46,174 nt of DNA from Armatimonadetes bacterium 13_1_40CM_64_14 (GTDB lineage Bacteria; Sysuimicrobiota; Sysuimicrobiia; Sysuimicrobiales; Kaftiobacteriaceae). The position numbers were made by a program, and so were the translations under genes. The notes below the pieces were generated by a model. It saw nothing but the letters and a program-made list of their open reading frames with translations. It had not been told where the DNA came from and made no database searches. The stretch lies in contig MNEU01000085.1 in NCBI GenBank assembly GCA_001917855.1, positions 1 through 46,174 of the forward strand. The letters run 5' to 3'. Positions 13,388 through 42,297 of this stretch are shown here, in pieces. How positions within the stretch are numbered: the first letter of the stretch is position 1; the number at the start of each line of letters is the position of its first letter.

Positions 13388-16183
13388 GTGTATAATTCCC
13401 TTAAGGCCATACAGGACCTGTCGATGGGAGAGCGCCTAGCCGCGGGTCTGCGCGTTCGCATCTTCGTGATCTTGGTCCTTGTCCTGTTGCCCATCCTCGG
13501 ACTCGTCTACATCATCGTCCAGCAGGAAGAGCGCACTCTGGCCCAGGTGGCTCTCGTTCAGGTCCAGAACCTTATCGATCACCTCATTACAGATTACACA
13601 GATGGCGTCGAGGACACGCGCCGCTTGCTCGGCAGCATTGCACGCCTTCCAGAGATCCGGGCAGCCGGTCCCGGCTGTCGCAGCGTGCTGGCCTGGTATC
13701 GCGACGCCTACCCCACTTACCTCAACTTGGGAGTGATCGATCGTCAGGGGTTCCTGGTGTGCAGCGCCCTTCCCACCGTGGGCAGGGTAAACCTGGGAGA
13801 TCGTCTGTACTTCCGCCAAGTCATCGCCACTCACCAATTTGCCGTTGGCGAGTACCAGATCGGTCGCATCACCCAGAAGGCCACAGTGAACTTCGGGTAT
13901 CCCCTCTTTGACTCTGCGGGCGACGTGCGTGCTGTGCTGTTTGCCGCCTTTGACCTGGGGGCCCTTAGCCGGGTGACTTCCGGCCCGGTCCTGCCCCGGG
14001 GGGCGGTCATGACCCTGGTTGACCGCGAGGGAGTAGTGCTCACAAGATATCCCGACCCTGAGCGCTGGACGGGGCGCCGACTCCCTGAAGCCATGGTGCT
14101 AGACGCCATCCAGTCTCAAAGGCAAAGCGTCATCGAAACCCAGGGCCCTGACGGGGTCCGCCGTCTGTATCGTGTCGCATCACTCCGCGACCTCCCCGGG
14201 GCCGGGATGTTGTACGCCAGCGCCGGGATCCCCTCGATCTCCGCCGCTGCCCAACGGTATGAACTCCTCATGCGCGGCGTGGCGGGCCTGACACTCCTAG
14301 GTCTGGTGGCCGCCTGGCTGGCGTTCGGCCTGTTGTTCGTCAAGCCGGTCGAAGCACTCGTGTCCGCGGCACGCCGAGTCGGGCAAGGAGAACTGTCCGC
14401 GCGGTCCGGCGTCGCGTACCGGACAGGAGAACTCGGCCAGCTGGCGCAGGCCTTCGACGGGATGGCCGAGGAACTTCAGCATCGCGAGGTGGAACGGAAT
14501 GCATCCGAGCAGCAGATTTTGGATCAACTGCAAACACTGACCGCACTGTACGCAGGCGCCCGCCAACTGACCCTCAGTCTGGATCCTGACGATCTGGCTC
14601 GCCGCATCGTCCGGATATTCGTTGAGGTCCTTGGGGGCAAGGCAGCGTGGATCGGTCGCGTCTTACCTGGCGGTCGAATGAAGCGTCTGGCGGACTACCC
14701 CGCTGACGCCGGCTTGTTGGAGGAGGTCACGGCGCGGGTCGCGGCGCGGTGGAGCGAGTCCACAGCACAGGAGCAGGGACCCAGCATGCATGCGATCCAG
14801 AGCGGCTTTCCTGCGATCGTGTCCGACATTGCCGGCGATCCCGCCCTTGCCTCCTGGCGGGACTTGCTCCTCCGATACGGGATCGCCAGCCTCGCGTCCT
14901 TCCCCCTCACCAGCCGAGATGAGACGTTCGGGGTTCTGGCAGTACTAAGCGATAACCCCGCCTTCTTCTCCGCCCATCGCGTGGAACTATTCTCCGCGTT
15001 CGCCAACCAGGCTGCAGCGGCTTTGGAAAACGCGCGGCTGCATGGGGAGACCACCGATCGCCTGGACCAGCTTGAGTCCTTGTCCAAGATCGACCTCGCC
15101 ATATCGAGCAGCTTGGATCTAAAGATCACGCTGGACGTCATTCTGGACCAAGTGACCGCGCGGTTGCGCGTGGATGCGGCGGATATCCTCCTGCTCCGCC
15201 CGCCCACCCGAATGCTCGAGTACGCCGCGGGGAGAGGATTTCGCGAGACACGCATGAGCGGGACGCGCCTCCGTCTCGGCGACCAGTACGCGGGCCGAGT
15301 CGCGTCCGAACGGCGCACCCTCCTCATCCCCGACCTGCGCGAAACGCAGGCAATATCGCCCCAGGACGCCGCTCCAGAGCATTTCCTCACATACTTGGTC
15401 GCCCGGGAGCAGTTCGTGTCCTACGCCGCAGCGCCGCTCATTGCCAAAGGGCAGGTCCTAGGCGTCTTAGAAGTGTACCACCGCACCGCCCTGGACCCCG
15501 AGCCGACATGGATCGCATTTCTCGAAGCCGTGGCTGGCCAAGCCGCGATCGCGGTCGACAACCTCACGCTGTTTGACAACCTGCAACGATCCAACCGTGA
15601 TCTTGCCCGCGCCTACGATACCACCCTGGAGGGGTTGTCGCGGGCCATGGACCTCCGGGATAAGGAGACCGAAGGACACACCCAGCGGGTCACGGACCTC
15701 TCGGTGCGCCTGGCCCGGGCGATGGGTATGAGAGAGGACCAGGTGGTGCATCTGCGGCGAGGCGCTCTCCTGCACGACATTGGCAAAATGGGCCTTTCTG
15801 ATGCGATCTTATTCAAACCGGATGTATTGACGGCTGACGAGGGGACGCGCATGCGGCGCCATCCCGAGCACGCCCGGGACCTCCTCCAGCCGATCGAGTA
15901 TCTGCGTCCGGCGTTGGCGATTCCCTACGCGCACCACGAGAAATGGGACGGCAGCGGATACCCCCAAGGGTTGCGGGGAGACCAGATCCCGCTGGAGGCG
16001 AGAATCTTCGCGATCGTCGACGTCTGGGACGCGCTGACTTCAGACCGCCCGTACCGCCCAGCCTGGTCGAAAGAGAAAGCGCTAACGTATATCCGCGAGC
16101 AAAGTGGTAAACACTTCGACCCGAGGGCCACCGAGGAATTCGTCAAGATGATGGGAACGGAAATTTCTGCGTCCTCGGACTAA
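13388..16183 (+). CDS. Membrane HD-GYP phosphodiesterase with periplasmic cache-like, HAMP and two GAF domains
   Basis: TM - PDC/cache-like region - TM - HAMP (FVKPVEALVSAARRVGQGELSARS) - GAF - GAF - HD-GYP (GALLHDIGKMGLSD, YAHHEKWDGSGYPQGLRGDQIPLEARIFAIVDVWDALTSDRPYR). Start may be a little downstream. Confidence 0.92.
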   Translation: MYNSLKAIQDLSMGERLAAGLRVRIFVILVLVLLPILGLVYIIVQQEERTLAQVALVQVQNLIDHLITDYTDGVEDTRRLLGSIARLPEIRAAGPGCRSVLAWYRDAYPTYLNLGVIDRQGFLVCSALPTVGRVNLGDRLYFRQVIATHQFAVGEYQIGRITQKATVNFGYPLFDSAGDVRAVLFAAFDLGALSRVTSGPVLPRGAVMTLVDREGVVLTRYPDPERWTGRRLPEAMVLDAIQSQRQSVIETQGPDGVRRLYRVASLRDLPGAGMLYASAGIPSISAAAQRYELLMRGVAGLTLLGLVAAWLAFGLLFVKPVEALVSAARRVGQGELSARSGVAYRTGELGQLAQAFDGMAEELQHREVERNASEQQILDQLQTLTALYAGARQLTLSLDPDDLARRIVRIFVEVLGGKAAWIGRVLPGGRMKRLADYPADAGLLEEVTARVAARWSESTAQEQGPSMHAIQSGFPAIVSDIAGDPALASWRDLLLRYGIASLASFPLTSRDETFGVLAVLSDNPAFFSAHRVELFSAFANQAAAALENARLHGETTDRLDQLESLSKIDLAISSSLDLKITLDVILDQVTARLRVDAADILLLRPPTRMLEYAAGRGFRETRMSGTRLRLGDQYAGRVASERRTLLIPDLRETQAISPQDAAPEHFLTYLVAREQFVSYAAAPLIAKGQVLGVLEVYHRTALDPEPTWIAFLEAVAGQAAIAVDNLTLFDNLQRSNRDLARAYDTTLEGLSRAMDLRDKETEGHTQRVTDLSVRLARAMGMREDQVVHLRRGALLHDIGKMGLSDAILFKPDVLTADEGTRMRRHPEHARDLLQPIEYLRPALAIPYAHHEKWDGSGYPQGLRGDQIPLEARIFAIVDVWDALTSDRPYRPAWSKEKALTYIREQSGKHFDPRATEEFVKMMGTEISASSD

Positions 16184-16251
16184 TGGCGGCGACCATGTCC
16201 GTGGGCAAGAGGCCGGTTGGTATTCCAACAAACCTCCTGCGTAGTGACAGC

Positions 16252-16269
16252 CCGTTGCCTGAGCAACGG
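16252..16269. other. 7-bp stem hairpin (CCGTTGC-ctga-GCAACGG) downstream of the HD-GYP gene
   Basis: Perfect inverted repeat with 4-nt loop; no T-tract follows, so not called as an intrinsic terminator. Confidence 0.45.
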
Positions 16270-16296
16270 CAAGCGGGCCCGGGCCAAGACGCGTTC

Positions 16297-16340
16297 GTAC
16301 CGCCCTTTGGCAATACATGTACCGCCCTTTGGCAATACAA
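16297..16340. repeat. Two tandem 22-bp direct repeats
   Basis: GTACCGCCCTTTGGCAATACAT (16297-16318) followed immediately by GTACCGCCCTTTGGCAATACAA (16319-16340); 21/22 identical. Confidence 0.95.
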
Positions 16341-16470
16341 ATGTTCGGCGGGTTTTCCTGTGGATGTCGAGCATCATCCGGTAGGCCCCCCAGTCCTCGT
16401 TCTGCTGAGATTGCGTTTACGCAATGTGCGTGGCGGTCGCATTGTGCCACCGCAGAGACGGTATAGTCGG

Positions 16471-16510
16471 GCTGTTATAGGATTACTGGGCTTGCTGTGA
16501 TAGTATTACT
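16471..16510. repeat. 17-bp imperfect direct repeat with 23-bp period
   Basis: GCTGTTATAGGATTACT (16471-16487) and GCTGTGATAGTATTACT (16494-16510), 15/17 identical. Confidence 0.7.
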
Positions 16511-16801
16511 AAACCAGGCGCAAGACACCGACCGGAGGGAGCGGATCCAGCGCCATGGGCCTCTTCACAGCATCACTTCTCAGTTGCGTTCGCGACCGTC
16601 GTGTGCGGGTCGATTATCTCGCAGCCACGCGCGCGTCGATCGCAGGGAGAGTAACACCTCACCAACACCGCGCAACGTCCTCATTCCCTGATCCACCAAG
16701 AGCTCGGGTCACCCCTCGAGGCGGAGTTCTGCACAGCTTCCGGACCCACGACGGCCTCGTCAAAACCGTCGGTCACGAGCGAGCGGGGGGGAGCCATCGG
16801 T

Positions 16802-17983
16802 ATGCGTGAGGTGGGCAAGCTGAACGGACTCAGCGTCGCGTTCGATCGCTTGGCCCAGGCCTTGAAGCAACATGAGCGCGCGGAGACCGACGGACCGCAG
16901 GCGGTCGGCGAACGCGCGGAGCAGCTCCGCGAAGAACAGCTCCATCAGATCTTCGATGAGTTGCCGATCGGGATATCGCTGATGGATGCCGAGTATAGGG
17001 TGGTCCGCGTCAGCGCCGCCATGGCCGATATGCTCGGGTACTCCGCCAACGAGTTGCGCGGCAAGAGTTTCAGCGAATTTACGCACCCTGACGATGTGGA
17101 GTTGGACCGCGCCCTCATCTCTCAGCTCTTCGCGGGGACGATTCCTCGCTACCATGTCGAGAAGCGGTACCTCACCAAAGACGGGCGGATCATTTGGGGA
17201 CAGTTGACGGCGACGGTCATTCGCGACAAGCAGGGCCATATCACGTTCCGGATCGCGACCGTCGAGGATATCACGTCTCGGAAAATCGCCGAGCACAAAC
17301 TCCGACGCACCGCGGAGCGCCTGCGGGCGCTGTCGCGCCGCGTCGTAGACCTGCAAGAGACCGAGCGGCTGGAGATCTCCCGCGAACTGCACGACGAAGT
17401 CGGCCAGACCTTGACAGGCCTCAAACTGCTGCTCGATCTCGCGTCGCGCCACGCGGACAGCGCGGGGGCCCGGCTCCAAGAAGCACTGTCCATCGTCGAG
17501 CATCTCATCGGGCAAGTCCGCACGCTGACTCTCGACCTCCGCCCGCCGATGCTCGACGACCTGGGCCTGGGAGCCGCGCTCGCATGGCACATTGATCGCT
17601 TCTCTGCCCAGACGGGGATGCAGGTGCACTGGCGACACCAAGGAATCGAGCGGTCCCTTTCCCAGCCCGTCGCCACAGCCGTCTACCGCATCGTCCAAGA
17701 GGCCCTGACGAATGTAGCCCGGCATGCGGGCGCCCGATCCGTGGACGTGCAGGTCGCCGTCGAACAGGGGATTCTTTCGATTCGAGTCGTCGATGATGGG
17801 CAGGGGTTCGATGTCGGCGCGGCCCTGGCCGGGGGTGCCTCGAGCGGCCTTGCGGGGATGCGGGAACGCGCCGAGTTCCTGGACGGCTCGTTCCGCGTGG
17901 ACTCCGTGCCCGGTTGCGGGACGCGGGTGAGTGCCTCCATTCCCATGACGTCCCAGGCCCCGAGCCCGGAGGGACGCGGCTAG
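16802..17983 (+). CDS. PAS domain sensor histidine kinase (HisKA_3 / NarX-like)
   Basis: PAS/PAC region (IFDELPIGISLMDAEYRVVRVSAAMADMLGYSANEL); SRELHDEVGQTLTGLKLLLDLA; ATPase VQEALTNVARHAGA, VVDDGQGFDV, GLAGMRERAEFLDGSF. Confidence 0.93.
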   Translation: MREVGKLNGLSVAFDRLAQALKQHERAETDGPQAVGERAEQLREEQLHQIFDELPIGISLMDAEYRVVRVSAAMADMLGYSANELRGKSFSEFTHPDDVELDRALISQLFAGTIPRYHVEKRYLTKDGRIIWGQLTATVIRDKQGHITFRIATVEDITSRKIAEHKLRRTAERLRALSRRVVDLQETERLEISRELHDEVGQTLTGLKLLLDLASRHADSAGARLQEALSIVEHLIGQVRTLTLDLRPPMLDDLGLGAALAWHIDRFSAQTGMQVHWRHQGIERSLSQPVATAVYRIVQEALTNVARHAGARSVDVQVAVEQGILSIRVVDDGQGFDVGAALAGGASSGLAGMRERAEFLDGSFRVDSVPGCGTRVSASIPMTSQAPSPEGRG

Positions 17984-17997
17984 GCTTCATTCCCCCC

Positions 17998-18648
17998 ATG
18001 CCACAGACCATCGTCCTCGCGGATGACCACCCTATCGTGCGCCAGGGGCTTCGGGCGGTGCTTGACGCCGAGCCTGATTACGAGGTCGTCGGCGAGGCGT
18101 CGGATGGACTGGAAACTCTCGCCGTGGTCGAACGCCTCAAACCGAGCCTCCTCATCGTCGACGTGATGATGCCTGGGTTGAACGGCCTGGAGGTAACGCG
18201 CCGGGTGGTCGAGCGCTCTCCTCACACGCGTGTCATCGTCTTATCCATCCACGCCGATGAAGCCCACGTCTTAGAAGCCTTGCGGTACGGAGCCGCCGGC
18301 TATGCGCTGAAAGATGTCAACATCGCGGACCTGACCCGAGGTTTGCGGGAGGTCGCGGCAGGGCGCCGGTATCTCAGCCCCCCTCTGTCAGAACACGCCA
18401 TCGATGCCTACGCGAAGCGGGCGGCCTCCAGCACTTCCACACACGAGACGCTCACCCCCCGGGAGCGCGAAATCCTGCAACTCGTCGCCGAGGGCCACAC
18501 CAGTGCGGAAATTGGGGTGCGCCTGGGCATCAGTCCCCGCACCGTCGAAGTGCACCGGGCGAACCTGTTGCACAAGCTGAGCCTGCGCACGCAGGCCGAC
18601 GTCATCCGCTATGCCATCCGCCGGGGCCTCCTCCCCCCAGACGGATAA
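17998..18648 (+). CDS. NarL/FixJ-family response regulator
   Basis: MPQTIVLADDHPIVRQGLRAVLDAEPDYEVVGEA... LLIVDVMMPGLNGLEV... LTPREREILQLVAEGHTSAEIGVRLGISPRTVEVHRANLLHKL. ATG 17998 preferred over ORF start 17914. Confidence 0.95.
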   Translation: MPQTIVLADDHPIVRQGLRAVLDAEPDYEVVGEASDGLETLAVVERLKPSLLIVDVMMPGLNGLEVTRRVVERSPHTRVIVLSIHADEAHVLEALRYGAAGYALKDVNIADLTRGLREVAAGRRYLSPPLSEHAIDAYAKRAASSTSTHETLTPREREILQLVAEGHTSAEIGVRLGISPRTVEVHRANLLHKLSLRTQADVIRYAIRRGLLPPDG

Positions 18649-18808
18649 GCGCGCCCGCCCTCCGATTGCAAGCGTTAGATTATGCTGCTGGGCTGTTACG
18701 TAGTGATTTCTGCCAATCTACGTAATCTGCCCGATTGCCGTTCCCCGCCCAACGGGAGGACACTACTCGTTACCACCAGACGATACGCCATCCCTAAGTG
18801 GAAAGGTC

Positions 18809-19231
18809 ATGCGACAGACCGATGTGCTTGTGATCGATCACAGCACGCTGTTCCTCGCCGTCGTGCGATACTTTTTGCACATGTGCGGGGACGGCCGCTT
18901 CGCGGTCCAAACCGCCTCCACCGTCTCGGAAACCGAGAATCTGACCTGGCTTCACCCCGACTTGGTCTTGACGGACATTAAGAGACCCGGCGGGGGGCTG
19001 GGCACCATCACCCATCTGAGGCAACAGTTCCCCCACGCCGGGATCATCGTCCTCTCCCGCGTTGACCGCCACGGGTTCCGCGCGGCCGTCGCGAAGGCTG
19101 GGGCGGATGCGTGTGTCTCGAAAACCAATTTGCACACCGGTCTGCTCCCCACGATGTTCGCCGTCCTGCGGCAGCGAGGGCGCAGCGCTCCTGCAGACGC
19201 AGTCGTCGGGTCGCTCCGCGAGGCGCCATGA
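18809..19231 (+). CDS. Stand-alone receiver-domain protein, atypical
   Basis: DVLVIDHSTLFLAVVRYFL (DH instead of the usual DD pair), PDLVLTDIKRPGGG (phosphoacceptor-like Asp), IIVLSRVD, ADACVSKT (Lys). Confidence 0.72.
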   Translation: MRQTDVLVIDHSTLFLAVVRYFLHMCGDGRFAVQTASTVSETENLTWLHPDLVLTDIKRPGGGLGTITHLRQQFPHAGIIVLSRVDRHGFRAAVAKAGADACVSKTNLHTGLLPTMFAVLRQRGRSAPADAVVGSLREAP

Positions 19232-19734
19232 GACGATGGCGCGCTCCTCAGGACTCTCGGATGCAGCTCACCCTGGCGCTTTTGGAGGAGTTTCGGAAGA
19301 CTGGAGATTCCCGCACGGCCATGCAGCTCACAGGCGTGCTGGCTCCGCTGGTTTACCAGATCACCCGCCGGTATCAGCGCACCGCAGTCCCGGCGCACCA
19401 GTTGAAGGCTCTGGCGTGGTCGGGGTTGTATGCGTCCTTGGCGTGGCTGGCCCTTGGTCGGCCGGTCCGGTTTGAGACCATGGCCCGATACATCACCGCA
19501 GGGGAAGTGTCCCGTTACGTACGCAAGACAGGAGCCGGACGAACGGGACGGAGTGCCTCGTGGCGCGGCGCGGGGAGAGGAAGCGGGGCAGGGCCTCGCG
19601 AGGAGGGACTTGCACCGGTGGCTCGTCCCCGCGCCGGCACGGGTATCGACTCTGAGGACCCAACCTGGCGGGGCCCTGTGACTGCGGGGGACAGGGGGCC
19701 GAAATGCCTTCCGTCACCGGGCCACGCCCCATAG
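19228..19734 (+). CDS. Short protein with sigma-70 region 2-like segment, no recognisable region 3/4
   Basis: LAPLVYQITRRYQRTAVPAHQLKALAWSGLYASLAWLALGRPVRFETMARYITAGEVSRYVRKTG resembles SigB/SigF region 2 (..LV..iArrf..rgv..eDL.Q.G..GL..A...fd...vkFsTyA...I.GEi.RylRd.g). ATGA overlap with the preceding receiver gene. Confidence 0.55.
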   Translation: MRRWRAPQDSRMQLTLALLEEFRKTGDSRTAMQLTGVLAPLVYQITRRYQRTAVPAHQLKALAWSGLYASLAWLALGRPVRFETMARYITAGEVSRYVRKTGAGRTGRSASWRGAGRGSGAGPREEGLAPVARPRAGTGIDSEDPTWRGPVTAGDRGPKCLPSPGHAP

Positions 19735-19757
19735 CGGGAAAGCGGACGTCCCGCTAT
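19731..19757. other. 9-bp perfect inverted repeat overlapping the stop of the sigma-like ORF
   Basis: ATAGCGGGA-aagcggacg-TCCCGCTAT; an alternative 6-bp hairpin CTATCG-gcgg-CGATAG (19753-19768) shares its 3' arm. Confidence 0.5.
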
Positions 19758-20090
19758 CGGCGGCGATAGGGGCGCTCGCGTACCAATGTCCTGGCGTGAA
19801 GTGCAGCGTCGCCACGTCGCATGAAGACAAACCCACCGTGAGTCTCGCTCTCGCCGCTGCGCGAAACGACAAACCTGCCGACCGCCGAAGCGCAATTGAG
19901 TCCAGGGGCGACGGGCACTCTCGCCAGGATTCTTGCGCGACACCTCACCGTTTGCGACTCGGGCCGCAGAGCCATCGGGCGACACCACTTCTCGGTGCTA
20001 CCCCATCTCGTGTCCGGATGTCGTGACCCTGTCGAGGATCGGAGTCGTTGACCGTTGGGCTCTCCGCCGCCCGGGGAGGAGGAGCTTCTC

Positions 20091-20753
20091 ATGAGGACAG
20101 AACCGGTAGACATCCTGCTCGTTGAAGACAATCCGACGGATGTGGAATTGACCCTTCACGCTCTGCACAAGAACAACGTTACAAACCGCGTGCATGTAGT
20201 TCGTGATGGGGTGGAAGCGCTGGACTTCGTCTTCGGCAAGGGGGCATATCGTGGCCGCAGCCTTGAAGACGGTCCGCGGGTGATCCTGCTAGACTTGCAA
20301 CTCCCCCAGGTCGACGGACGGGAGGTGCTCCGGCAGATCAAGGGCAACCTTCTGACAAGGTCGATCCCGATCGTGGTGCTCACCTCCTCCGTAGAACAAC
20401 GGGATATCCTCGAGAGCTACCAGTTGGGGGTCAACAGTTACATCGTCAAGCCCGTCGACTTCACGCAGTTCACCGACGCAGTGCGACAGCTTGGAATGTA
20501 CTGGCTCCTGCTCAACCAGCACGCGGTCACCATCGACGTGGAATGCGTCAAGGTGGAGCCAGGCGAGTTCGGGTGGAACGCCCGCTTCGTGGTGCGCGGT
20601 CTGCAGGACCCGCGTACTCCGCGCGGAGTCCTCGCGCTTACTCGCCTGTCGACTCGTCCGCTCGTTGGACTCAGGTACAGCTTGGTCCTGGACACCAACG
20701 CCCCATCGCCCAATGGGCAGGAGAACCCTCCGCCCCCTGATGCCGACGCCTGA
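20091..20753 (+). CDS. Rcp1-like response regulator with C-terminal extension
   Basis: VDILLVEDNPTDVELTLHALHKNNVTNRVHVVRDGVEALDFVFGKGAY...VILLDLQLPQVDGREVLRQIK...IPIVVLTSSVEQRDILESYQLGVNSYIVKPVDF; about 75 extra residues after MYWLLLNQ. ATG 20091 preferred. Confidence 0.9.
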   Translation: MRTEPVDILLVEDNPTDVELTLHALHKNNVTNRVHVVRDGVEALDFVFGKGAYRGRSLEDGPRVILLDLQLPQVDGREVLRQIKGNLLTRSIPIVVLTSSVEQRDILESYQLGVNSYIVKPVDFTQFTDAVRQLGMYWLLLNQHAVTIDVECVKVEPGEFGWNARFVVRGLQDPRTPRGVLALTRLSTRPLVGLRYSLVLDTNAPSPNGQENPPPPDADA

Positions 20754-20941
20754 CCGCTCTCCCTGATCGACTCGCCCACACTCTCCCTGGAACGTTCCCC
20801 CCCACCTGGGCCTCGCATCCGCCCCCCTCCGCTCCGATCTCGCAGGCGCAACCGCTGAACTGGTCGCCGCTCCATCTCACGTCTTGGCGCCATCATCTTG
20901 AGGTATGAGACATAAAAGCAGCGGCCCCTCCCAAGGAGCTA

Positions 20942-22597
20942 GTGTTGCCCGAGTTGCGAACCCAACGAGCCAGACGAGGAAACGACGCGATGGCGCGGAT
21001 CGTGGCGCTGGTGAAGACGATCCGTCTGCCAGACAACACTGAGCGGAAGGTCTCCGTGGTCCGCTTGATCATCCTCTTTTCCTTGCTGCCCATTCTGTGG
21101 TGGGACGTGGTCTCGCCCGACACCGCGCAGATCCTGATCGGTTTGACGGCCCTGATTGCGTGCTACATCCTGGTGGCCCTGTTCGTCATCCCCCGGTTGC
21201 GCCATAATGTCCGCCATGATCTCCTGCTGACGATCGATGTCCTCTCCATCACCGCCTTGGCATGGTTTACAGGCGGCATCCAGAGCAGTCTCCTCTTCCT
21301 CTTCTACTTGCCGATCCTGTCTGCCGCGATCCGGCTGGACCTCCGGGACTCGGTGCTATCGGCGGTCGCGGTATCGGGCATCGTGGTGTGGCTGTGGGCA
21401 GTCGCCGAAGGGGGCTTTCCGTCATTCAGCGGAAGCACGTTGCGTGTCGGCCTGCTGGTTGGGAGCAGCATGGTGGTGGCGGTCTTCTTCAGTATCTTAG
21501 CGGGAGAGTCGCGCCTGATGCAGGAACGCGGCAATCTGAACCGCCGCCTCAATGACAAGCTGGACGAAGCCACTGAACAGCTGCGACGGCGGCTGGAGGA
21601 GTTAGAGTTCGCCTACGAACTGTCGCGCCGGCTCGCCGGTGCCACCGGGACGGTCCCGGTCCTGGTATCGGTGGCCCAAGCCGCCCAACAGCTCCTGCGG
21701 GCGCCGTACGCCGCCGTGTTCTTGGCGGAACATGCAGGAGGAGAGCTGGTGCTCGCGCACGCCGCGGGCGTAGCCGACCATGACGCCATGCCGGTTATGT
21801 ACGCGTCGGCGGGCCGGGTCACCACCGACACCTCCCACCCCGTCAGTATCCACGTAGAGGGCGACGGGGCGTGGACCCGCGCGGTCTGCACGCCGATTGT
21901 CGTCGCCGACCGGTTGGTCGGCGTGTTGTGTGCCGGGGGCAATGACGCGTGGCACCCCGCGCGTCACTCGATCGCGGTGCTCGGGCACGTGGCGGGCCAA
22001 GCCGGGATCGCACTCGACCGCGCGACAATGCTGGAAGACCTGCAGCGCCTCGCCGTGGCCAAGCCGGAGGCCCGGTTGTTCACGCGCGACCAGTTCGACC
22101 GGATCCTCAAAGATGAGATCGGGCGCGCCACACAGTTGGGCGTCCCCTTCGCCTTGCTGAAACTTGTGCTCGCCGACCTCGAGGTCGGTGAAACCGCCCT
22201 GGACACGACCGCCGAGCTCGTCCAAAAGCGATTCAGCGATCTGATACTCGGCACCGCTCGCCGGGTGGATATTGTAGCCCAGGGAACACGCGGGGAGTTC
22301 TTCGTCCTGCTTTCCATGACGAACCTCGTCAGCGCGCAGCGCTACGCGGAGCGATTACTCCGGGAAATCAAAGACGACGCTACGATCAGCCGGCTGGTGG
22401 ACTCGCCGTCGGGCCCTGAGATGCGTGTCGGCATCGCGATGTTTCCCGACGATGCCGTGGGCGCTGCGCAACTCGCTTACGCCGCGCAGGATGCGGCGGC
22501 ATCGGCGACGTCCGATACTCCGGTCGCCTGTGCGCACGACCTGGAGTCTCACCACCCGACGATCTACACCGGGCGTCAGTCCAACAAAGTGCAGTAG
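20942..22597 (+). CDS. Membrane GAF-domain protein with degenerate GGDEF-like C-terminus
   Basis: Multiple N-terminal TM helices, coiled coil (NDKLDEATEQLRRRLEELEFAYELSRRL), GAF-like region, then DIVAQGTRGEFFVLLSMTNLVSAQRYAERLLREI ... MRVGIAMFPDDAVGAAQLAYAAQDA, a GGDEF fold with TRGEF in place of GGDEF. Start may be ATG 20990. Confidence 0.75.
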   Translation: MLPELRTQRARRGNDAMARIVALVKTIRLPDNTERKVSVVRLIILFSLLPILWWDVVSPDTAQILIGLTALIACYILVALFVIPRLRHNVRHDLLLTIDVLSITALAWFTGGIQSSLLFLFYLPILSAAIRLDLRDSVLSAVAVSGIVVWLWAVAEGGFPSFSGSTLRVGLLVGSSMVVAVFFSILAGESRLMQERGNLNRRLNDKLDEATEQLRRRLEELEFAYELSRRLAGATGTVPVLVSVAQAAQQLLRAPYAAVFLAEHAGGELVLAHAAGVADHDAMPVMYASAGRVTTDTSHPVSIHVEGDGAWTRAVCTPIVVADRLVGVLCAGGNDAWHPARHSIAVLGHVAGQAGIALDRATMLEDLQRLAVAKPEARLFTRDQFDRILKDEIGRATQLGVPFALLKLVLADLEVGETALDTTAELVQKRFSDLILGTARRVDIVAQGTRGEFFVLLSMTNLVSAQRYAERLLREIKDDATISRLVDSPSGPEMRVGIAMFPDDAVGAAQLAYAAQDAAASATSDTPVACAHDLESHHPTIYTGRQSNKVQ

Positions 22598-38333: not shown

Positions 38334-39221
38334 TCAGTGCTTCACGTCGTCGTGCCGCGATTCGTCGACCTCTCGCGGTCCATATCGCAGGTAGTGCAGC
38401 ACTACCCCGACGATGCCGCCGGCGAACACGAGATTGCCCAACCATTTGAGCGGTCCCTTCCAGAGGTTCACGAACGTCACTTTGGGGTTGGTGGGCAGGC
38501 CGTACAGACTCGTTTCGTCGCCGTGCGGCAACACGTAGATGACATGGGTGCCGCCCACGCCAGAGGGGTTGTAGACGGCCGCGTGATCCAGGCCGTCCGC
38601 GGTCAACTGGGCGACTCGTCCCTGGGCCTGGGCGAGCATCTTCTCCCGCGTCCCGAAGGAGATGGCATTGGTCGGGCAGGACTTCACGCACGCCGGCTCC
38701 AGTCCCGCACTGACGCGGTCCGAACACAGCGTGCACTTGTAGACCTTGCCGGTGGTCGGGCTGATCCGGGGGACGTCGAACGGGCAGCCTGTCACACAGA
38801 ACTGGCAGCCGATACAGTTCTCCTGCACGAAGTCCACGATCCCATTGGAGTACTGCACGATCGCTCCGGGCGCTGGACAGGCCTTCAAACATCCCGGGTC
38901 CTCGCAGTGCATGCACTGGTACTTGGTCAGCGTCCACAGCAACCGCCCGTCCCGCTCGGTTTCGTTGAACTTGATGAGCTGCCAGAAGTTGTACTCCAGG
39001 TCGGGCAGTGTCTGGTACGTTTGGGGGGGCGACTCCCGGATTTCGTCGACTTTCAAATCGTTCCACTCCTGGCAGGCCACCTCGCAGGCCTTGCATCCGA
39101 TGCACACCGAGACGTCGATCATCTTGGTGAGCTCGGGGACGTCCTTAATGCCTGTCGCCGTGTGAGGGGAGGCGGACACCGCCTTGACCTGCAGGGCCGA
39201 AGCGCTCGTCACGGGGCTCAT
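38334..39221 (-). CDS. fdnH: Formate dehydrogenase iron-sulfur beta subunit with C-terminal TM anchor
   Basis: 4Fe-4S cysteine clusters CIGCKACEVAC, CMHCEDPGCLKAC, CIGCQFCVTGCPFDVP, CTLCSDRVSAGLEPACVKSCPTNA; TM near the C-terminus. Confidence 0.95.
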   Translation of the reverse strand: MSPVTSASALQVKAVSASPHTATGIKDVPELTKMIDVSVCIGCKACEVACQEWNDLKVDEIRESPPQTYQTLPDLEYNFWQLIKFNETERDGRLLWTLTKYQCMHCEDPGCLKACPAPGAIVQYSNGIVDFVQENCIGCQFCVTGCPFDVPRISPTTGKVYKCTLCSDRVSAGLEPACVKSCPTNAISFGTREKMLAQAQGRVAQLTADGLDHAAVYNPSGVGGTHVIYVLPHGDETSLYGLPTNPKVTFVNLWKGPLKWLGNLVFAGGIVGVVLHYLRYGPREVDESRHDDVKH

Positions 39222-39225
39222 CGGG

Positions 39226-42200
39226 TCACACCTTTTCGAGCTTCACGAGGAAGCCTTTGTACTCAGGGCAAAACGAGTTCGGGTCCACGACCGGGGGCGT
39301 CGTGATATTCGCGAGGCTGCCGCCTTGCTTGCCCAATCCAATGAACCCCCAGTGGATCGGCATGCCGATCTGGTAGACCTTCTTGCCCGCGACGGTCATG
39401 GGCTTGATCCGCTTGGTCAGCAGGGCTTTGCCCTCGATGTGACCCCGGGCCGAGGTGACCCGCACCCGCTCGCCGTCTTTGATCCCCATCTCCTGTCCCA
39501 GTTCGACGGGAATCTCGACGAAGAACTCCGGCATCATCTCGATCGCCCGAGGGTGATTCTTGGTCCAGTAGTGGAAGTGCTCGGTGAGCCGATAGGTGGT
39601 GCCGACGATGGGGAAGTCTTTCGCGGTGCCGAGGACATCCCATTGGGTAGTCTTAAAGATGTTGGCTGCGGGATTGTGGCTCTGCCCCCCGGGGTGCATC
39701 GGATTGTCGACGGGGGACTCCACAGGCTCGTAGAACTCCGGGAAGGGTCCTTCTTTGAAGATGTCGCCGGGGGCAAACAGCCGGGCGACTCCCTCGGGGA
39801 GTACGATGAACGCACCGGCACCCTTCTCCGGGTCGGATGTTCCGGGATAATCCGGCACGTCGCCCACCCAGGCCTTGCCGTTCCAGACGATCGCCGGGCG
39901 GGAGGGATCCCACGGCTTCCCCTGCGCATCCGCTGACGCGCGGTTGTACATGATCCGCCGGTTCGCAGGCCAGCTCCACGTCCAGGAGGAGAACCGCCCC
40001 AATCCGGTCGGGTCCTCCGTGCTGCGACGCATCATCATGTTCCCGCTGTCGGTATAGGAACCGCAGTATAGCCAGTTGCCGCTGGAGGTGGTGCCGTCGT
40101 CTTTCAGCGCGCTGAACGACGCCAGCTGTTGGCCGGTAGTCAGGTCCTTACCATTGACCTCCCGTGCGACTTCGTCCTCGGCGGGAGACACCGGGTTAGT
40201 GTAGGACCAGTCCAGACCGAGGACAGGGTCGGGGAAGGTCCCGCCCTCGGTCTTGTAGAGCTCCCGAACCTTCGTGAAGATCCGCCCGATAATCTCCTGG
40301 TCCGGCTTCGCCTGGCCGGGGGCATCGAGGGCCTTATATTTCCACTGCGCCCAGCGCGAGGAGTTGGTGAACGACCCGGACTTCTCGGCGAAGTTGGCCG
40401 CCGGTAAGAGGAAGACTTCGGTTTTGACGTCTTCGGGTTTCTTGCCCGCCAGGGCTAAAATCTCCGACTTCCAGAACGATGTCGTCTCTGTCTCGAAGTT
40501 CTCGGCGACCACGAGCCACTTCAGCTGCGACAGCGCAAACACCATCTTCCGGGAGTTTGGTCCATTGCAGACCGGGTTCATCCCGAAGTCGACTAGGCCT
40601 TCGACTTGGCCTTGGGCCATATGGTCGTAGATATAAGCCCAGCTCCAGTTCTCCAGCTTGCCCGACTTCGGATCTTCGGGCAGGCGGGGATGGAGCGTGT
40701 AGCCGAACTGGTTGGCTTTGGTGGCGGCCGCGCCGTAGAAGGCCTTGAGCTGGCTCGTGAACAGCTTGGGCGTGTTAGACCAGAAGTTCACCGAGTTGGG
40801 ACGCAGCGGCTTGGGCACCGCCACCTTCAAGTAGTCCTCCATGCTCACGTGCCCGGCCTTCGGGATCGGCATGTAGCCTGGGACGTTGTGATAGCCCATG
40901 CCCATGTCGGTCCCGCCCTGGATGTTCGCGTGGCCGCGGAGCGCGTTCACCCCACCGCCCGGCATGCCCACATTCCCTAAGAGCAGCTGGAGCATCGCGG
41001 CGGTCTTGATCAGCTGGACCGAGAAACTATGGTGGGTCCAGCCGAGAGCGTACATGATCGTCCCGGCGCGGTTTGCGGGGTAGGTCGAGGTGATGATCTC
41101 CGCCGCCTTCGTGAACGCCTCGGCGTCGCAGCCGCAAACCTCAGACACTTTCTGGGGCGTGTAGCGGGCGTAGAACGCCTTCATGAGCTGGAAGACCGAA
41201 CGGGGATGCTGCAGCGTTGGGTCGACCTGAGCGTTCCCTTGCGCGTCCACCTCGTACTGCCAGGTGGAGGTATCGTACTGCTTCTTATCCTTGTCCCACC
41301 CGGAGAAGAGTCCGGTCTTCTCGTCGAAGCTGTAGCCCTCTTTCACGATGAACGGCGCGTTGGTGTGCAGCTTGACGTAGTCGACTTGGACGTGGCCGGT
41401 CTGCAAAGCGTAGTTGATCAGCCCACCGAGGAAGGCAATGTCGGTGCCGGCACGGATCTGGACGAAGTGGTCGGCGACCGCGGCGGTTCGCTGGAAGCGC
41501 GGATCCACGGCCACCAGCTTGGCCCCCCGCCGGCGCTTGGCTTCCATGACAAACCGGAACCCGACGGGGTGGTTCTCGGCCGGATTGCCCCCCATCGCCA
41601 AGATGACATCCGCGTTGGCGATATCGGTCCAGCCATTGGTCATCGCCCCGCGTCCGAATGTGGCGGCCAAACTGGCCACCGTGGGGCCGTGTCATATTCG
41701 AGCTTGCTGCTCCACCGGGATGACGCCGAGACCCGCCCGGAAGGCCTTCTGGATCAGATAGTTATTCTCGTTGGAGTCGGTGCAGCCCCCGACCACGGCC
41801 ATGGCGGTCAGGGCGTTGATCGACCGCCCTTTGTAATCTTGCGTGATGAGGCGCTTGTCGCGTGTCTCTTTAATTAAGTGGGCAATGCGGTCAATGGCCC
41901 AATCCCAGGACTTTTCTTCGAAGTGGTCCGCCCCCGGGGCGCGATAGAGCATCTTGGTCATGCGCCGCTCGTTGACGATGTCGTCCCGCAGCGTCGCGCC
42001 CTTGGAACACAGCGTGCCGCGGTTGATCGGGCTGTCCGGATCCCCTTCGACGTGCACCACGGTGGTGCCCGTGACGTTGCGCGAGCGGTCGCCCAGGGTG
42101 TGGATGATGACGCTGCAGCCTACCGCGCAATACGGACACACGCTCCGGGTCTCGGTGGTGCGCTCGATTTTGAGAGTGCGGGCTTGAGCTGCGGCAGGCT

Positions 42201-42297
42201 GGACGTCGAAGCCGAAGACACTTACCGCCGCGCCGACCACCCCTCCGGCCACCCCCGTGGTGAGGAATGTGCGGCGCGTAATCGTCGGAACACTCAT
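39226..42297 (-). CDS. fdnG: Formate dehydrogenase-N alpha subunit, selenocysteine-containing (in-frame UGA at 41694-41692, codon 202)
   Basis: ORFs 41692-42297 and 39226-41679 are in the same frame; junction reads ...PVEQQARI-U-HGPTVASLAATFGRGAMTNGW..., matching the QAR-x-U-HGPTVA context of FDH-N/O alpha subunits. Tat-like signal TRRTFLTTG and CPYCAVGC 4Fe-4S motif at the N-terminus. Confidence 0.95.
41662..41694 (-). promoter_or_regulatory. Bacterial SECIS element (UGA plus downstream hairpin)
   Basis: UGA-CACGGCCCCAC-GGUGGCC-AGUUU-GGCCGCC: 11-nt spacer, 7-bp stem (one G-U), 5-nt loop containing GU; same spacing and layout as the E. coli fdhF SECIS. Confidence 0.85.

Follow-up and report, generated by a model that had tools for sequence, protein, structure and literature searches.

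The ORF at 19228-19734 encodes a fragment of a sigma factor and follows a single-domain receiver gene in the window (the whole stretch of DNA that was analyzed, 46,174 nucleotides of contig MNEU01000085.1). The favored account, with a probability of about one half, is that this ORF is a diverged, truncated, lineage-specific SigB/F/G-like paralogue that is decaying after a phase of selection and is probably losing its function. Of the genomes searched, only this one has a truncated sigma paralogue beside a receiver, and a one-off remnant or an unproven decoy is a likelier reading of the fragment than a new regulatory system. The preliminary description of the locus had suggested a split PhyR-like sigma mimic, with the receiver and the sigma-like domain encoded by adjacent genes. 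The features of the locus are listed in Table 1.

Table 1. Features of the window around the receiver and the sigma fragment
Feature	Position	Strand	Basis
PAS-HisKA_3 histidine kinase, candidate partner of receivers	16802..17983	+	Pfam PAS, HisKA_3, HATPase_c
NarL-type response regulator, REC and GerE HTH	17998..18648	+	Pfam Response_reg 95.7 bits, GerE 68.5 bits
Single-domain NarL/EvgA-like receiver, 140 aa, without output domain	18809..19231	+	Pfam, nearest structures, fold, coding composition
168-aa ORF containing the region 2 fragment; second possible start at ATG 19261	19228..19734	+	
86-aa sigma-70 region 2 domain with the phylum's SigB/F/G-like factor as parent	19276..19533	+	tblastn, AlphaFold2, Foldseek
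Non-coding-like C-terminal tail; no frame encodes sigma regions 3 or 4	19537..19731	+	Codon score, pLDDT, tblastn
Rcp1-like receiver protein, right-hand border of variable segment	20091..20753	+	Ortholog at counterpart locus in G006 and G008, 73-76% identity

The product of the second ORF matched the Pfam model Sigma70_r2 below threshold (18.3 bits against a cut-off of 24), and its NCBIfam match was to SigB/SigF/SigG-type families (SigBFG, E 1e-4). In tblastn searches, full-length SigB/F/G-like factors of the same phylum aligned with residues 17-102 (19276-19533) with E-values between 2.5e-16 and 6e-15 and identities of 35-40%, and the window copy shares the lineage signature FETxARxxxAGE with them. 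The AlphaFold2 model of the fragment has five helices (residues 8-25, 28-37, 39-47, 56-74, and 82-102), and its pLDDT exceeds 90 across region 2. Foldseek searches with this model returned sigma region 2 structures, the best ones at about 2 Å rmsd over 70-90 residues; the E-values, of which the best was 0.004, were at the modest level to be expected when the domain is small and part of the model is disordered. As judged from these searches and the predicted fold, the similarity to sigma-70 region 2 is far above chance, in agreement with the resemblance that had been described for the central part of the product.

The similarity to the full-length paralogues ends with region 2 at 19533. No match to sigma regions 3 or 4 was detected by tblastn in any frame of 18501-21000, which bears out their reported absence and rules out a frameshift concealing them. 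Compared with the SigB/F/G factor of the phylum, the window copy therefore lacks regions 3 and 4; it also adjoins a receiver and, of the positions conserved in region 2, retains half. Of the 32 positions conserved in at least 90% of 25 full-length homologues, 16 are kept and 16 are lost in the window copy, compared with 0-9 lost in any full-length homologue; the most deviant true homologues retain about three quarters. The substitutions D58Q, Q61A, G63A, D75A, and Y85M affect residues that are invariant in all 25 homologues. D58, Q61, and G63 belong to the motif DLxQxG of region 2.2, the similarity of which had already been described as weakened, and Tyr85 belongs to region 2.3. We take these lost positions to correspond to the known sigma-70 sites for core binding and -10 melting. 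Their loss, together with that of regions 3 and 4, makes it very unlikely from the sequence that the fragment is a working sigma factor.

The receiver ORF and the second ORF share ATGA at 19228-19231 in different frames. An in-frame ATG at 19261 has AGGA 7 nt upstream, and a start at this codon would leave a gap of 29 nt and no overlap with the receiver. The ribosome-site energies of the starts at 19228 and 19261 (-5.9 and -4.0, respectively) fail to choose between them, so that ATG 19261 is an equally plausible start; sigma homology begins downstream of both. Both ORFs and their overlap are thus as previously reported, but the translational coupling read from the overlap is uncertain because of the second start. 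The codon score through about residue 103 was 0.11-0.16, slightly below the +0.22 to +0.36 of the neighboring genes. The score of the tail (residues 104-168) was -0.39, like that of intergenic DNA, indicating that the coding part comprises about 100 aa. Approximately 550 bp without coding signal follow region 2. The tail was disordered in the AlphaFold2 model (pLDDT, about 40-60). A promoter/terminator scan found none.

Second codon positions of the fragment and its paralogues were 63-65% identical, and third positions were 24-34% identical. In simulations of neutral decay that started from a duplication within the family, the values were about 60% and 41-47%, respectively. The difference between second and third positions was 0.29-0.41 in the observed data and 0.14-0.20 in the simulations (P of about 0.02 at most; the six comparisons are not independent of one another). 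This pattern argues against decay that was neutral from the duplication onward, and the region 2 domain therefore spent much of its history under selection at the amino acid level. Such selection may still be acting today. The region 2 part contains no stop codon. Codon GC periodicity and the absence of stops had P values of 0.16-0.56 under neutral simulation, which do not separate decay from function; they were insufficient as proof of current function, and the codon-position identity test was the stronger one.

A full-length SigB/F/G-like paralogue is encoded elsewhere in the same genome (contig C48, 26522-27316). This parent factor is conserved through the phylum, which is small. In the genomes examined (e.g., G004 and G009), it is located between mltG/YqeG/lytic transglycosylase genes and roadblock/PilB-like genes, the names being read from translations with no profile search. 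In the region 2 tree, the window copy grouped with family f1 plus f4 (support, 88), with no resolution of its placement inside f1, and its branch was 1.7 substitutions per site, compared with about 0.5 or less for the full-length factors. Among 386 genomes, E 1e-9 was reached by same-family homologues only, indicating that a lineage paralogue is more likely than an import, as far as sequence similarity tells. Horizontal transfer of the fragment from another phylum is unsupported for the same reason. Searches for a plasmid origin and for a defense-system family gave no match. In three genomes of family f7, SigB/F/G-like matches are paired about 1.2 kb apart (G024:C113, G033:C103, and G035:C108), which suggests tandem duplicates of the sigma factor in that family.

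Conserved co-occurrence of the two genes in relatives, which had been put forward as a check, was not observed. Neither the pair nor an ortholog of either gene was found in 43 genomes of the phylum, and whole-genome searches returned neither an ortholog of the fragment nor a receiver-sigma pair in the 386 genomes overall. A conserved pair was also absent from two scans of genome collections, which used exact short patterns and so cover close relatives only. With a source genome that is 77% complete and a genus represented by one member among the genomes searched, this absence is informative, although sampling is thin.

At the counterpart loci of two relatives, G006 and G008, the genes encode a Cache-HAMP-GAF kinase, an Rcp1-like receiver, a GAF-HD protein, and a GAF-GGDEF protein, and a similar set is present in G001. 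The order in the window is a Cache-HAMP-GAF-HD fusion, the PAS kinase, the NarL regulator, the receiver, the sigma fragment, the Rcp1-like receiver, and the GAF-GGDEF protein. The PAS kinase/NarL pair thus lies beside the fragment, as had been described. The segment from this kinase to the sigma fragment is missing from the counterpart loci of the relatives, indicating that this is a rearranging spot. The relatives also lack a full-length sigma factor at this locus; as a sigma region 2 match exists as well, neither of the outcomes that had been named as refuting the preliminary reading occurred. The Cache-HAMP sensor fused to GAF-GAF-HD (13388-16183) is a lineage-specific fusion in a rearranging signaling locus, since the Cache-HAMP part is found in a separate kinase in relatives (L050, L051, and L054). 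The GAF-GGDEF protein (20942-22597), with orthologs in five relatives, has a PilS-like membrane domain and a degenerate-looking GGDEF motif (GTRGEFF) and, judging from this motif, probably lacks diguanylate cyclase activity. A perfect 21-nt direct repeat, GTACCGCCCTTTGGCAATACA, with a period of 22, is located at 16297-16339 within the non-coding stretch 16184-16801.

The receiver product matched Response_reg at 38.6 bits (cut-off, 30.2), and the receivers of EvgA and NarL are its nearest solved structures. D10, the phospho-acceptor D56, S84, and the conserved K105 are kept, and the second pocket acid, normally D, is His11, confirming the replacement noted earlier. The structure model, built from a six-sequence alignment, has the CheY-like strand/helix order and the (alpha/beta)5 fold (pLDDT, 81), and the codon composition is that of normal coding DNA. 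With its fold, phospho-acceptor D, and conserved K and T/S all present and one pocket acid changed to His, the receiver is a still-intact but atypical gene. If it is phosphorylated at all, this is plausibly by a neighboring kinase.

In the favored account, the history of the fragment would begin with a duplication, after which one sigma copy came into the two-component cassette beside the receiver. This copy would have evolved for a time as a selected protein for which contacts with polymerase and promoter were no longer needed, and a rearrangement would then have removed everything past region 2. The present product would be a helical domain of about 100 residues with a random tail, unable to direct transcription. 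Most probably, it has little or no remaining function today. A degenerating truncated paralogue accounts for the non-coding-like tail and the rearranged locus no less well than a mimic does. If the gene is decaying, it is a sigma duplicate from which the polymerase contacts disappeared, while selection acted on the protein, either before the truncation or at about the same time; such a duplicate would be a plausible intermediate toward sigma mimicry.

The strongest alternative, a working region 2 decoy, PhyR-like in two polypeptides, is possible though less likely. By analogy, the full-length SigB/F/G-like factor would normally be held by an anti-sigma factor or some other protein that binds region 2, the fragment would bind this protein instead, and the receiver would gate the binding by phosphorylation. 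PhyR, the anti-anti-sigma factor of the alphaproteobacterial general stress response, also combines a receiver with a sigma-like domain, which is degenerate at polymerase and promoter contacts (PMC8103513); the fragment shows the same pattern, having lost these contacts but kept its fold, with saturated third codon positions. In the CsfB/Gin-SigE case, region 2 of a related sigma factor is an anti-sigma target on its own. CsfB binds SigE 17-133, indicating that region 2 alone suffices for some anti-sigmas of related sigma factors (PMC10141391). However, PhyR is a single polypeptide with the sigma-like domain N-terminal, whereas the window has two ORFs in different frames with the receiver upstream. 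Furthermore, the PhyR domain is of the ECF/EcfG type with sigma2 and sigma4, while the fragment is of the SigB/F/G type with region 2 only. The proposed likeness to PhyR therefore holds for a degenerate sigma-like domain beside a receiver but not for the domain order, the sigma family, or region 4.

It does not hold for NepR either, with which, along with EcfG, PhyR works. NepR had no match in the source genome (77% complete) and none over the cut-off in 9 relatives, in a search that was positive in the Caulobacter control. An RsbW-like anti-sigma factor had also been suggested as something to look for elsewhere in the genome, and one orphan RsbW-like ATPase of 229 aa is encoded on contig C38, which counts in favor of a decoy. 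This gene adjoins neither sigma gene, however, and nothing was found connecting it with the receiver-fragment locus. SpoIIAB/RsbW-type anti-sigmas rely on sigma regions 3 and 4, which are missing here. The non-coding-like tail and the lack of conservation in any relative also argue against a decoy. There is a small chance that the locus encodes a receiver-controlled sigma mimic of two polypeptides, derived from SigB/F/G region 2 alone and relieving inhibition of the full-length paralogue, by which PhyR-like logic would have arisen independently outside Alphaproteobacteria. If working, it would mean that region 2 of a SigB/F/G factor is enough for a sigma decoy and can be linked to a receiver while remaining a separate protein, as an independent parallel to PhyR. 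On either reading, decaying or working, this is at present a single-genome case.

A gene on contig C9, one of the two most RsbW-like, was rejected as an anti-sigma candidate, being instead an RsbT-like kinase in a stressosome-like set. This set (C9 656-5057, L056; gene names read from translations) encodes two STAS-like proteins (one RsbR-like, one RsbS-like), the RsbT-like kinase, and a phosphatase resembling RsbX. Genes for a PAS kinase and a NarL regulator come immediately after it, and the set is apparently wired to a two-component system.

There is a slim chance that the region 2 fold now serves the receiver or the adjoining c-di-GMP-type sensors (HD-GYP, GGDEF-like) in an unrelated role, as a protein-protein adaptor. 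The kept fold, the lost sigma contacts, the adjoining receiver, and the surrounding signaling genes are consistent with it, but no evidence points to it positively and relatives show no conservation. The chance is very slim that the fragment supplies region 2 to a sigma factor of two subunits, the other being a region 4 protein, as region-2-only RsoA does with SigO in Bacillus (PMC8103513): RsoA, also a small protein with sigma region 2 only, keeps its initiation function and has its partner SigO co-encoded, whereas here the contact residues of regions 2.2 and 2.3 are lost and no lone region 4 gene adjoins. The HTH of the neighboring NarL regulator does cross-match sigma region 4 models, but it was rejected as the partner, this cross-match being general to that HTH clan.

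Farther along the window, a SECIS_3 element (66.4 bits; 41639-41697, minus strand) lies inside a formate dehydrogenase-like gene (39145-42297, minus strand). An in-frame TGA in this gene is read as selenocysteine (ARIUHGPTVASLA), and from these sequence features the formate dehydrogenase of the source genome appears to be made as a selenoprotein.
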